From assembly GCF_026242055.1 (NCBI RefSeq), contig NZ_JAPJDL010000005.1, positions 255,089 through 319,088 on the forward strand: 64,000 nucleotides of DNA, in the 5' to 3' direction. Source of the stretch: Lentzea sp. NEAU-D7. Its GTDB lineage: Bacteria; Actinomycetota; Actinomycetes; Mycobacteriales; Pseudonocardiaceae. The position numbers were made by a program, and so were the translations under genes. Position 1 is the stretch's first letter. Every line of letters starts with the position of its first letter. The notes beneath the pieces were generated by a model, which saw only the letters and a program-made list of their open reading frames with translations, searched no databases and was not told where the DNA came from. Positions 17,238 through 25,917 of the stretch are shown here, piece after piece.

Positions 17238-18644
17238 GTGACTGTGACGGATTCTGACCTCACTGAGGGCCGTCAGCAGCTGAGTTTGGGCACGGCCGCC
17301 GCACGAAATCTGGCCACTACCACCAAGTCCGTCCCGCAGATGCAGGGAATCACTTCCCGCTGGCTGCTCAAGGTGCTCCCCTGGGTGCAGGCCGCGGGTG
17401 GTGCGTACCGCGTCAACCGGCGCCTCACCTACACGCTGGGCGATGGCCGCGTCTCCTTCACGAACATCGGCGCCGACATCCGCGTCGTGCCGATGGAGCT
17501 CACCGAGCTGGCTCTGCTCAAGGGCTTCGACGACGAGGCGGTCCTCGCCGCCCTCGCCGGCCGCTTCACGCAGCAGGAGTTCGGCATCGGCGAGGTCATC
17601 GTCGAGAAGGGCCGCCCGAAGGACACCCTCGTGCTGATCGCGCACGGCAAGGTGGACAAGGTCGGCACCGGTGAGTACGGCGGCGAGACCGTGCTCGGCA
17701 ACCTCGCCGACGGCCAGTACTTCGGCGAGACCGTGCTGGCGGGGCCGCAGGGCGAGTGGGAGTACACCGCCAAGGCCGTCACGCCGGTCACCGTGCTCAC
17801 GCTGTCGTGGAACGACTTCCAGGCGCTCAACGGGGAAGCGGGCGGCCTGCGCGCACACATCCAGCAGGCGTTCAACAGCCGCAACAAGCCGCAGGACGAG
17901 TACGGCGAGGCCGAGATCGGCATGGCGTCCGGTCACGAGGGCGAGCCCGTCCTGCCCGGCACGTTCGTCGACTACGAGGTCTCGCCGCGCGAGTACGAGC
18001 TGAGCGTCGCCCAGACCGTGCTGCGGGTCCACACCCGTGTCGCGGACCTCTACAACAAGCCGATGGACCAGGTCGAGCAGCAGCTGCGGCTCACGATCGA
18101 GGCCCTGCGCGAACGCCAGGAGCACGAGATCGTCAACAACAGGTCGTTCGGCCTGCTGCACAACGCGGACCTCAAGCAGCGCATCCACACCCGCACCGGC
18201 CCGCCCACCCCGGACGACTTCGACGAGCTGCTGTCGATCGTGTGGAAGGACCCCGGGTACTTCCTCGCGCACCCGCGCACGATCGCCGCGTTCGGCCGCG
18301 AGCTCAACAAGCGGGGCCTCTACCCGCAGCACATCGACTTCAACGGCCAGCAGGTGCCGGCCTGGCGCGGCATCCCCGTGCTGCCGTGCAACAAGATCCC
18401 GATCTCCGACACCCGCACGTCGTCGGTGATGCTGATCCGCACCGGCGAGCAGAACCAGGGCGTCATCGGCCTGCACCAGACCGGCATCCCGGACGAGTAC
18501 CAGCCGGGCCTGTCCGTGCGGTTCATGGGCATCAACGACCAGGCGATCATCAACTACCTGGTCAGCGCCTACTACTCCGCCGCCATCATGGTGCCGGACG
18601 CGATCGGTGTGCTGGAGCACGTCGAGCTCGGCCGCGAGGGATAG
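17238..18644 (+). CDS. Family 2B encapsulin shell protein 1 (HK97 fold with inserted cNMP-binding-like domain)
   Basis: 468 residues. The N-terminal arm and first HK97 part ([45 protein letters not shown]) and the C-terminal part ([69 protein letters not shown]) are characteristic of family 2 encapsulins, which self-assemble into icosahedral protein compartments. Residues about 95-215 form a cyclic-nucleotide-binding-like insertion ([32 protein letters not shown]), which defines family 2B. The phosphate-cassette Arg appears replaced by Trp174 (EWEYTAKA). First gene of the terpene operon; the cyclase follows 3 bases later. A second, diverged shell gene lies two genes on. Confidence 0.93.
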
Positions 18645-18647
18645 GTC

Positions 18648-23279: not shown

Positions 23280-24221
23280 ATGACGGAACATCCGCCGCGT
23301 TCGGTGCTGCTCGCCTCACCCCGGTCGTTCTGCGCCGGGGTGGAGCGCGCCATCGAGATCGTGGAACGACTGCTCGACCAACGCGGCGGCCCCATCTACG
23401 TGCGCAAGCAGATCGTGCACAACATCCACGTCGTGCGCGCGCTGGAAGCTCGGGGCGCCGTGTTCGTGGAGGAACTGTCCGAGGTGCCTGTCGGTGCCAC
23501 GGCGGTCTTCTCCGCGCACGGCGTCTCCCCCGCCGTGCGGGCGGAAGCCGAGGCACGGTCGTTGGACGTGCTCGACGCGACCTGTCCCCTGGTGACGAAG
23601 GTGCACGCCGAGGCACGGCGCTTCGCCGAACGCGGCGACACCATCGTGCTGATCGGGCACGCAGGGCACGAGGAGGTCGAGGGCACGCTGGGCGAGGCGC
23701 CCGGCCGGATGGTGCTGGTGGAGACCGTGGCGGACGTCGAGGCACTGGAGATCACCGGCCCGGTGTCCTACCTGACGCAGACGACGCTGGCCGTCGACGA
23801 GACGGCCGAGGTGGTCGAGGCGCTGGAGCGGAAGTTCCCGCACGTGCGGGGGCCCGGTTCCGACGACATCTGCTACGCCACCACGAACCGGCAGATCGCG
23901 ATCCGCGAGGTCGCCGCGCGGTCGGACCTGGTGCTCGTGGTGGGGTCGAGGAACTCGTCCAACTCGGTGCGGATGGTCGAGCTCGCCTCCCGCGTGGGCA
24001 CGCCGGCCCACCTGATCGACGACGCCTCGGAGATCGACCCGGCCTGGCTGGACGGAGTGACGTCGGTGGGCCTGTCCGCGGGCGCGTCGGCACCTCCCGA
24101 GCTCGTGGACGAGGTCGTGGCGGCCCTGGAGGCGCTGGGCACCGTCTCGGTGTCCACGCACACCACCGCGACGGAGACGATCGCCTTCACCCTCCCGCTG
24201 GCGGTGCGCCGTGCTGGCTGA
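23280..24221 (+). CDS. ispH: 4-hydroxy-3-methylbut-2-enyl diphosphate reductase
   Basis: 313 residues, normal for the family. The three [4Fe-4S] Cys are C18 (SFCAGV), C102 (DATCPLV) and C198 ([11 protein letters not shown]). Catalytic surroundings [14 protein letters not shown] and SSNSVRM are intact. IspH makes IPP and DMAPP in the last step of the MEP pathway. It lies 22 bases after the polyprenyl synthase and overlaps dxs by 11 bases. Its placement with a terpene cyclase suggests an extra, pathway-dedicated copy, though whether another ispH exists elsewhere cannot be seen here. Confidence 0.95.
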
Positions 24222-25917
24222 CATCACCTCGCCCGCGGACGTCCGGGCGCTCTCGTCCTCCGAGCTCGGCGCGCTGGCCGGGGAGATCCGGTCGTTCCTG
24301 ATCTCCAAGGTGCACCGGACCGGCGGGCACCTCGGCCCGAACCTGGGCGCCGTCGAGCTGACCATCGGCGTGCACCGGGTCTTCAACTCCCCCACCGACG
24401 TGGTGCTGTTCGACACCGGGCACCAGTCGTACGTGCACAAGATGCTGACGGGCCGGTGCTCGGACTTCGACTCGTTGCGGCAGGCCGGCGGCATGTCCGG
24501 CTACCCGTCCGCGGCCGAGTCCGCGCACGACGTCATCGAGAACTCGCACGCCTCCACCGCACTGTCCTATGCGGACGGTCTGGCCAAGGCGTTCGAGCTC
24601 GGCGGCGCCGACCGCCGGGTCGTCGCCGTCGTCGGTGACGGCGCGCTGACCGGCGGCATGTGCTGGGAGGCGCTGAACAACATCGGTGGCTCGTCGCGCC
24701 CGGTCGTGGTGCTGCTCAACGACAACGGCCGTTCCTACGACCCGACGGCGGGCGGCTTCGCCGCGTCGTTGCTGAACGGCTCGGCCCGCGGGCTGTTCGA
24801 GGCACTGGGGCTCGCGTACATCGGCGAGGTCGACGGCCACGACGTGCACGCGGTCGAGAACGCCCTGTGGGAGGCCAAAGCGCTCGGCCGCCCGGTCGTC
24901 GTGCACTGCAAGACCGTGAAGGGCAAGGGGTACACCGCCGCCGAGACCGACGAGGCCGACCGCATGCACGCCGTCGGCGCGTCCGGTGCCCACCGCGGGC
25001 GGACGTGGACCGACGCGTTCTCCGACGAGATCGTGGCCATCGGCGCGGACCGCCCGGACGTCGTCTGCCTGACCGCGGCGATGCTGGAACCGGTGGGGCT
25101 GCGGCCTTTCTCCGAGCGGTTCCCGGCGCGCGTCTTCGACGTCGGGATCGCGGAGCAGCACGCCGTGACGTCCGCCGCCGGCATGGCGATGGGAGGGCTA
25201 CACCCGGTCGTCGCCGTCTACGCGACGTTCCTGTCCCGCGCCTTCGACCAGTTGCTGATGGACGTGGCCCTGCACCGGCTCCCGGTGACGTTCGTGCTGG
25301 ACCGGGCCGGCGTGACCGGCCCGGACGGCGCGTCGCACCACGGCATGTGGGACGCCTCGGTGCTGCCCGTGGTCCCCGGCCTGAGGCTGGCCGCGCCGCG
25401 CGATCCGGCCTCGCTGGCCGCACTGCTGCGCGAGGCCGTCGAGGTCTCGGACGGCCCCACGGTGGTGCGCTACCCGAAGGCGTCCATCGGCCCGGACGTG
25501 CCCGCGCTGCACCGCGTGAGCCACTTCGACGTGCTGCGCGAGGAACCGGGCGCCGAGGTGCTCCTGGTCTCGGTCGGCCCGCTGGCAGGCCCCTGCCTGG
25601 CGGCGGCGGAGGAGCTCGCCTCGCACGACGTCCGCGTCAGCGTCGTGGACCCGCGCTGGACGGCGCCCCTGGACCCGCACCTCGTCAAGTACAGCGGCCA
25701 GCACCGCCTGGTTCTCGCCGTGGAGGACACGACGTCCACCGGAGCCCTGGGCGCACGTCTGGGCCAGGCCCTGACCGGTTCCCCGACCTGCGTGGCGACT
25801 TTCGCGCTGCCACCGCGCTTCCTTCCGCACGACTCCCGGGCCCGCATCCTGCGCGCGCACGGCCTGGACGCCGCCGGCATCACGACGAGCGTGCTGAAGC
25901 GCCTCGGCGTGAAGTGA
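24211..25917 (+). CDS. dxs: 1-deoxy-D-xylulose-5-phosphate synthase, short form
   Basis: 568 residues from GTG, overlapping ispH. Thiamine-diphosphate motif [18 protein letters not shown], substrate segments [14 protein letters not shown] [12 protein letters not shown] and [10 protein letters not shown], and the central transketolase domain ([37 protein letters not shown]) are intact. It condenses pyruvate and glyceraldehyde-3-phosphate, the entry step of the MEP pathway. It is about 60 residues shorter than housekeeping Dxs (about 630). The missing part lies mainly between the YDPTAGGFA segment and [17 protein letters not shown], where typical Dxs has a long loop. Last gene of the operon; its 3' end overlaps the convergent acyltransferase gene. 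Confidence 0.94.

Follow-up and report, generated by a model that had tools for sequence, protein, structure and literature searches.

In 2-methylisoborneol synthase encapsulins, a Family 2B shell holds a terpene cyclase as its cargo. Operons in which a terpene cyclase (TC) gene lies between two shell genes, enc1 and enc2, with the gene for a trans-isoprenyl diphosphate synthase (PT) behind enc2, have already been described, as have PT operons with precursor genes (PMC12407261 and PMC8346489, in excerpt). The operon of the soil bacterium Lentzea sp. NEAU-D7 analyzed here shares with the two-component shells in the excerpted text of PMC12407261, exemplified by Streptomyces lydicus, the Enc1- and Enc2-like motifs, the position of the cyclase between the shells and the PT gene directly after enc2. 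It differs in having two cyclase genes (fused in the sequence analyzed), the second of them apparently dead, and in carrying ispH and dxs after PT, neither of which is described in that excerpt. It also differs from the 2-methylisoborneol encapsulins, as its cyclase is not 2-MIBS-like (47 bits against NF041167, cut-off 400) and no methyltransferase was found among the 10 flanking open reading frames (ORFs) scanned, in agreement with an earlier note on this DNA, which had remarked on the missing GPP methyltransferase.

Two-domain geosmin synthases (GS) flanked by encapsulin genes, treated as GS-like cargo in the excerpt of PMC8346489, occupy the same slot at loci L003, L005, L007–L010, L021 and L022. 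They have the N-domain lineage of the first Lentzea cyclase, TC1, and the same GPTGLGT-type motif, whereas the second Lentzea cyclase, TC2, is apparently dead and does not belong to the clade of GS C-domains. The NSE triad was present in both domains of all 33 geosmin-synthase-like two-domain proteins examined, and a GxGT-type motif in all 33 as well, in each case with or without a shell gene nearby; since shell-less geosmin synthases bear the motif too, the tag may be no specific signal for these shells. Enc1-Enc2-PT-IspH-Dxs operons lacking any cyclase match, present in Saccharothrix yanglingensis, Kibdelosporangium, Actinocrispum, Solihabitans and a record titled Rhodococcus rhodnii, resemble the Lentzea operon in the kind of shell and in the PT-IspH-Dxs tail, but have no cyclase between the shells.

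Gene content and shell proteins

The window, that is, the whole 64,000-nt stretch of DNA analyzed, holds six densely packed ORFs on the plus strand between positions 17238 and 25917. With the probable starts at 20808 (enc2), 22211 (PT) and 23280 (ispH), the gaps between the six genes are 3, 36, 2, 22 and −11 bases, which bears out the close same-strand packing reported in the earlier note. A scan of the operon returned no promoter-like sites and three terminator-like sites, which did not rise above the shuffled-sequence level. The same six-gene order, which the earlier note had proposed looking for in other genomes, was found in the window and in all 22 Lentzea congener loci fetched, and within Lentzea the gene set is kept together as one unit, beyond chance. 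Seventeen of these 22 loci recur within our 80-locus set, and the two sets are not independent. PT and dxs are each split over two frames in L034, as is dxs in L044.

The shell proteins Enc1 (17238..18644) and Enc2 (20808..22208) scored 771 and 733 bits, respectively, against NF041163 (cut-off 400), consistent with the two Family 2B shells named in the earlier note, and profile searches found in both the HK97 SrpI-like domain PF19307 with an inserted cNMP-binding-like domain (PF00027). Their genes lie within 10 kb of each other and are the only two PF19307 places retrieved by a profile search of the whole genome. Diagnostic motif 1 reads IVWK in Enc1 (18237–18248) and RRRN in Enc2 (21810–21821), while motif 2, of 10 residues, is located at 18330–18359 and 21900–21929, respectively. 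Compared by eye, the Enc1 motifs resemble those of Sl-Enc1 (TVWK and AVDFHGHSLP) and the Enc2 motifs those of Sl-Enc2 (RRRK and GAELHGTDVR) from the two-component Family 2B system of S. lydicus (PMC12407261, in excerpt), and by analogy Enc1 and Enc2 would co-assemble into a single mixed shell. The ORF program called a TTG at 20793 as the start of enc2; the alternative GTG at 20808 is favoured because stop codons lie between 20793 and the GTG in L036, L047 and L053.

The two cyclases

TC1 (18648..19733) is a single-domain terpene cyclase that our tree placed among the N-domains of geosmin synthases, the germacradienol-forming lineage. It scored 485 bits against 5DZ2 in phmmer, retains 138 of the 151 positions conserved among these N-domains and has complete metal motifs (DDEFF from 18894 and NDIFSYERE at 19326–19352), both of which are present in all 23 genus rows, the window counted; its 10-residue tag lies at 19689–19718. 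On this sequence evidence, TC1 is expected to be an active Mg-dependent FPP cyclase whose product is germacradienol/germacrene D or a closely similar sesquiterpene rather than geosmin. Because there is no working GS C-domain in the operon, its product is likely to be a compound other than geosmin or 2-methylisoborneol, as anticipated in the earlier note, and geosmin was rejected as an unlikely product on the same ground. The 'geosmin-synthase-like cyclase' of that note is apt for TC1, which is of the N-domain type, but the description does not extend to the rest of the cyclase, which forms two genes in the 22 congeners and has a second part without the metal triad.

This second part, TC2 (19734..20771), has a class I alpha-domain fold in a confident predicted model, and its metal motifs are altered, with SDAF at 19974 and a 10-residue former NSE region at 20370. 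The NSE triad is lost in 71 of 71 TC2 sequences and the first Asp of the Asp-rich motif is retained in 4 of 70 rows, so that TC2 lacks both the pair of motifs typical of class I cyclases and the metal motifs that a GS C-domain has of its own. It was also placed outside the GS C-domain clade with an SH-aLRT of 100, in a quick tree with long branches. Judged by these features, TC2 can be counted neither among the usual metal-dependent cyclases nor among the GS C-domains. Its C-terminal tag, PSGLGTQS (20703–20726), sits in a disordered end, and the P, G, L, G and T of the tag are invariant in all 69 rows covering it; a PxGLGT-type end was found in 70 of 72 rows; of the remaining two, P0074 is a partial protein and P0075 has an odd tail. 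TC2 adjoins TC1 in 23 of the 24 genus genomes, the window counted, and the remaining genome has neither. This tagged, conserved and apparently dead cyclase is the most unusual feature of the operon, and the earlier note had overlooked it.

In all 22 fetched congener loci, TC1 and TC2 are separate genes in different frames with a short overlap. The window alone, as assembled, has them in one frame of 707 aa, with the junction (19720..19743, plus strand) one base shorter. The fused protein scored 855 bits against NF041168 (family 2 encapsulin cargo terpene cyclase), below the cut-off of 1200. As a database query it had no relative at E <= 1e-250 among the 7993 candidates scored, namely those sharing most words with it, and the window's own protein was likewise absent from these. 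A degenerate TC2 was also seen in one genome of a second genus (G029).

Precursor enzymes

PT (22211..23257) scored 470 bits against NF041169 (family 2 encapsulin cargo polyprenyl transferase; cut-off 450), and the solved structure nearest to it in sequence is 3NF2, for which our literature search found no paper. PT cargo has been described with a long disordered N-terminus. The 12-residue first Asp-rich motif of PT is present in all 17 Lentzea loci, in 25 of 35 loci without a cyclase match and in 15 of 18 with one; as it is common to loci of both sorts, we rejected it as a guide to chain length. A Phe five residues before this motif presumably suggests a C20 product, which would argue against direct supply of FPP, and with the chain length unsettled the link from PT to TC1 is a guess.

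The IspH (HMBPP reductase) paralogue (23280..24221) scored 297 bits against TIGR00216 (cut-off 188), aligned to solved IspH and has the three Cys motifs. The Dxs (DXP synthase) paralogue (24211..25917) scored 502 bits against TIGR00204 (cut-off 466) and 644 bits against 9hn8 in phmmer; at 568 aa against a family model of 616 positions, it has the TPP-binding and transketolase domains in Pfam searches. The polyprenyl synthase, IspH and Dxs of the earlier note are thus all above their model cut-offs, as are its shells, and the genome holds three Dxs places and three IspH places above cut-offs. The operon encodes two of the seven MEP steps, the first (Dxs) and the last (IspH), and all 10 flanking ORFs scanned belong to other families, so that the 'complete pathway' of the earlier note was overstated. 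A motif scan of the operon proteins detected the proposed loading tag in both cyclase parts and none in PT, IspH or Dxs; for PT this absence is weak evidence, since PT cargo in general was found to be without a motif (PMC8346489, in excerpt).

Models of the compartment

On balance, we lean towards a shell loaded with active TC1 and the tagged pseudo-cyclase TC2, with IspH and Dxs, and perhaps PT, supplying precursor from outside. Within the one mixed shell expected from homologues, TC1 would cyclise FPP with Mg to germacradienol/germacrene D or a near sesquiterpene. Loading would proceed via the C-terminal tag, whose role is a published proposal, and TC2, having kept the fold and the PxGLGT tag and probably unable to hold the usual metal cluster, would most likely enter the shell together with TC1, as its structural, loading or stabilising partner. 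IspH and Dxs would be co-expressed, most likely outside the shell, and raise the supply of isoprenyl diphosphates, while PT may lie outside or inside; as a counterpoint, NCBIfam files PT as a family 2 cargo. More tentatively, and a little short of an even case, TC2 may be a dedicated pseudoenzyme cargo, selected for its fold and tag, that sets the loading, stoichiometry or product release of TC1. To our knowledge it would be the first pseudoenzyme partner in an encapsulin, and none was named in the titles or abstract openings of the literature searched.

TC2 would be a natural example of an enzyme that gave up its catalytic metal site while its proposed loading tag stayed invariant, which suggests that cargo loading and catalysis are separable genetically. 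If TC2 does serve in loading or as a partner, it would reveal the way in which two-component shells deal with several cargoes, a question raised as open in the excerpted discussion of PMC12407261. A further possible cargo of these shells is the ordinary geosmin synthase of the cell, which is encoded elsewhere and has a tag of the same type.

An unlikely but substantial alternative is that TC2 has been repurposed as an enzyme or a binder, which would carry out a metal-independent, acid-initiated second cyclisation of the neutral product of TC1 (for example, germacradienol) or hold that product, much as the GS C-domain acts on germacradienol. The predicted class I fold and the place beside TC1 in 23 of 24 genus genomes fit this idea, and the second Asp and the sensor-region Arg are invariant in all 71 TC2 rows. 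Replacements in the old metal site are also non-random: the N place is mostly Gln (56 of 71; conservation rank 219 of 303 columns) and the S place mostly Gly (66 of 71; rank 112), and as neither is especially variable, the pocket may still do something. However, the columns of the first Asp and of the NSE Glu belong to the least conserved of the protein (ranks 294 and 300 of 303), the tree keeps TC2 apart from GS C-domains and the known GS C-domain reaction is Mg-dependent (PMC8949605, in excerpt).

Far less probable is that TC2 is a functionless relic decaying in the operon. Its catalytic residues are lost, its dN/dS exceeds that of TC1 in 219 of 231 pairs, indicating that it evolves faster, and in Amycolatopsis acididurans (L133) the same slot holds a shrunken cyclase frame without the motifs. 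Against decay, every one of the 231 pairs has a dN/dS below 1 (median 0.31), pointing to purifying selection, GC3 is 0.94 and the tag is unchanged in the rows that cover it, with nearly all rows ending in it.

We find it harder still to accept the model of the earlier note, in which the shell encloses the working enzymes of the entire route, Dxs through cyclase, as a single compartmentalised pathway. The tight co-directional operon, its conservation in the genus and the NCBIfam name of PT are what would be expected, but the operon lacks five of the seven MEP steps and the tag is confined to the two cyclase parts, its absence from PT counting for little. Moreover, PT-IspH-Dxs follows Enc1-Enc2 without a cyclase match in 6 of 80 loci, and in L060 it neighbours cyclase-like genes although no shell match lies within 20 kb.

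It is scarcely credible that both domains of the fused protein work, as in a genuine bifunctional synthase of the geosmin type. The single open frame in the window, the two-domain cyclases that other genera have in this slot and the NSE kept in 18 of 18 non-Lentzea second domains sampled speak for it, but domain 2 lacks the triad in the window as in all 71 rows, the 22 fetched congeners encode the domains separately, no relative at E <= 1e-250 appeared among the scored candidates and the NF041168 score is under its cut-off.

Some TC2 proteins carry the database name 'germacradienol/geosmin synthase', a label that is misleading for them.

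Organization and conservation of the shell operon

ORF calling on the window recovered six open reading frames on a common strand at 17238-25917, spaced by 3, 36, 2, 22 and -11 bases assuming likely start codons, which bears out the six co-directional, closely spaced genes described in the earlier note. Profile searches likewise supported its two family 2B encapsulin shells, Enc1 (17238-18644) and Enc2 (20808-22208), identified PT (22211-23257) as a family 2 cargo prenyl transferase and gave scores exceeding the cut-offs for IspH (23280-24221) and Dxs (24211-25917); the fused cyclase scored 855 bits against the cargo terpene cyclase profile NF041168, under the cut-off of 1200. 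The shell profile PF19307 matched two places in the genome, both within the operon, so the strain's Family 2 shells are all operon-derived as far as this profile detects them. No obvious terpene-metabolism gene was present among the ten flanking ORFs scanned, which comprise, upstream, a helicase, a subtilase, regulators of the AraC and ROK types, an oxidoreductase of the Gfo/Idh type and one unmatched ORF, and, downstream, an acyltransferase gene in convergent orientation, two genes resembling citrate synthase and a regulator of the AraC type.

Conservation of the gene order as a unit was checked in a genus panel of 24 genomes, with operon regions taken from 22 congeners. The order Enc1-TC1-TC2-Enc2-PT-IspH-Dxs, in one direction and with the cyclase as two genes (TC1 and TC2), is shared by all 22 regions; PT and Dxs of L034 and Dxs of L044 are each split over two frames. 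TC2 adjoins TC1 in 23 of the 24 genus genomes (window counted), the exception (G022) having an ordinary two-domain geosmin synthase, one weak match and a family 2B shell elsewhere in the genome.

We also examined the best 80 loci from an Enc1 search of named genomes. The full order was found in 17 (16 titled Lentzea and one Nocardia sp. NRRL S-836), which lie on the same contigs as 17 of the 22 congener regions and are not independent evidence, and was absent from the remaining 63, some of them truncated at a contig end. Six of the 80 (L107, L131, L138, L141, L147 and L150) carry Enc1-Enc2-PT-IspH-Dxs without a cyclase match, while 12 (L112, L114, L127, L129, L132, L137, L142, L144, L146, L151, L156 and L159) place two cyclase domains between their shell genes, with PT downstream of these, four of them (L112, L132, L142 and L146) also with IspH. 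Since both arrangements occur in other loci, the Lentzea operon appears to combine the two.

Several relatives show further variants. L057 contains Enc1, TC1, a longer frame with two more cyclase-domain matches, Enc2, PT and IspH. The L133 locus of Amycolatopsis acididurans has, between Enc1 and Enc2, a short cyclase-like frame (~3850-4580) that lacks both the NSE motif and the tag. L060 (13005-19777) has two cyclase-like genes, one on the opposite strand, with PT, IspH and Dxs; no shell gene was found in its 20-kb stretch, and its genome (G075) has family 2B shells elsewhere. The operons of L098, titled Nocardia sp. NRRL S-836, and L141, titled Rhodococcus rhodnii NRRL B-16535, resemble those of Lentzea and Kibdelosporangium, and these species titles may be wrong.

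The operon is real and genus-conserved, and its membership of a described class is near certain. 2-Methylisoborneol encapsulins were reportedly covered in earlier published work. Excerpts of two papers already describe the two-component TC/PT class, the presence of precursor genes in PT operons, geosmin-synthase-like cargo and Enc1-Enc2 co-assembly (PMC12407261, PMC8346489), the former also reporting mixed shells in S. lydicus and an insertion domain that does not bind cyclic nucleotides. Neither a dead second cyclase nor encapsulins of Lentzea came up in the titles and abstract openings of the open-licence PMC papers retrieved, and the sole paper with both 'encapsulin' and 'Lentzea' in an open-licence PMC search was, from the part retrieved, a lasso-peptide review (PMC8498205).

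Two cyclase genes and their proposed targeting motif

The single geosmin-synthase-like cyclase of the earlier note holds as to lineage, for the TC1 part, but not as to number, two genes being present in 22/22 congeners. In all 22, the TC1 stop falls after a GPTGLGT-type motif and TC2 begins in another frame, the overlap being ~8 to 11 bases if TC2 is read from the first start close to that stop. One congener deviates at the TC1 end, solely behind the motif, and in the diverged congener L054 PTGLGT is preceded by Arg. The window junction is one base shorter, giving a single 707-aa frame (18648-20771), and no relative at E <= 1e-250 to the fused protein was found among 7993 candidates scored. 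Either the fusion is genuine and peculiar to the window, or the assembly is wrong here; the conserved state is two cyclase genes.

TC1 (18648-19733) matched the N-domain structure of geosmin synthase from S. coelicolor with 485 bits, clustered with geosmin-synthase N-domains in a quick tree (SH-aLRT 98) and retains 138 of the 151 positions conserved across 31 or more of 33 such domains. DDEFF and NDIFSYERE are present in TC1 of 23/23 genus rows. According to excerpts of published studies, these N-domains convert FPP to germacradienol and germacrene D (PMC8949605, PMC7192455), and KaGerS of Kutzneria, with 50% identity to a germacradienol/geosmin synthase fragment, yields the same two products (PMC7192455). 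The exact product of TC1 is not sure because two of its deviations, His to Glu and Glu to Ala, sit inside the metal motif.

GPTGLGT-type motifs have been proposed as targeting sequences, as far as the retrieved text goes (PMC8346489). TC1 and TC2 carry one each and the PT, IspH and Dxs sequences none; for PT this says little, since the same partial text records no motif in PT cargo. The unusual part of the operon is TC2 (19734-20771), tagged, under selection and apparently dead as a cyclase. That TC2 is not a usual metal-dependent cyclase is highly probable; that it serves as partner or loader is a tentative proposal, for which a metal-free second step is the main rival. In a second genus, represented by one genome, L055 has Enc1-TC1-TC2-Enc2-PT, and its TC2 (7107-8108) lacks both metal motifs yet keeps GPTGLGT.

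Precursor-supply genes

Dxs and IspH look intact in domains, motifs and alignment, and each is one of three genome copies. They catalyse steps 1 and 7 of the seven MEP steps, so the operon is able to increase flux but is no pathway in itself; the precursor supply proposed earlier survives in the former sense, the complete pathway does not. By established MEP biochemistry, IspH depends on a source of electrons and the DXP released by Dxs has to pass to five more enzymes, which makes a cytosolic location of both the simpler reading. The PT motif is mostly identical in loci with and without a cyclase and thus offers no evidence for an FPP-specific partner.

A second Dxs and IspH pair lies within ~4 kb at another place in the genome (G000:C4:158964-162981). 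In the window, a prenyl-synthase-like ORF (49474-50367, minus strand) matches PF00348 only weakly and in part (40.6 bits), reads LHEQLHADLM at the expected DDxxD position, and is perhaps another dead isoprenoid enzyme.

Geosmin synthase and shells across genomes

The strain's two-domain geosmin synthase (locus L062, G000:C2:166368-168494) lies apart from the shell operon, with no shell match in the 20-kb stretch around it, and also has a GxGT-type motif. Such motifs were found in 33/33 two-domain geosmin-synthase-like proteins, this one included, shell gene nearby or not, the flank checked being only ~1.5 kb for 30; this calls for caution over the motif as a targeting sequence. Among 199 relatives, a family 2B shell was present in 74/74 genomes with geosmin synthase vs 7/125 without, and in a class-wide sample of 394 in 88/92 vs 9/302; kinship is uncorrected in both, the samples overlap, and in many genomes the two genes are neighbours. 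For other phyla, parts of published accounts describe geosmin genes adjacent to genes for cNMP-binding proteins or encapsulins (PMC7251104, PMC12224551). Co-occurrence with family 2B shells even without adjacency points to geosmin synthase as possible shell cargo in trans in genomes that encode the two separately.
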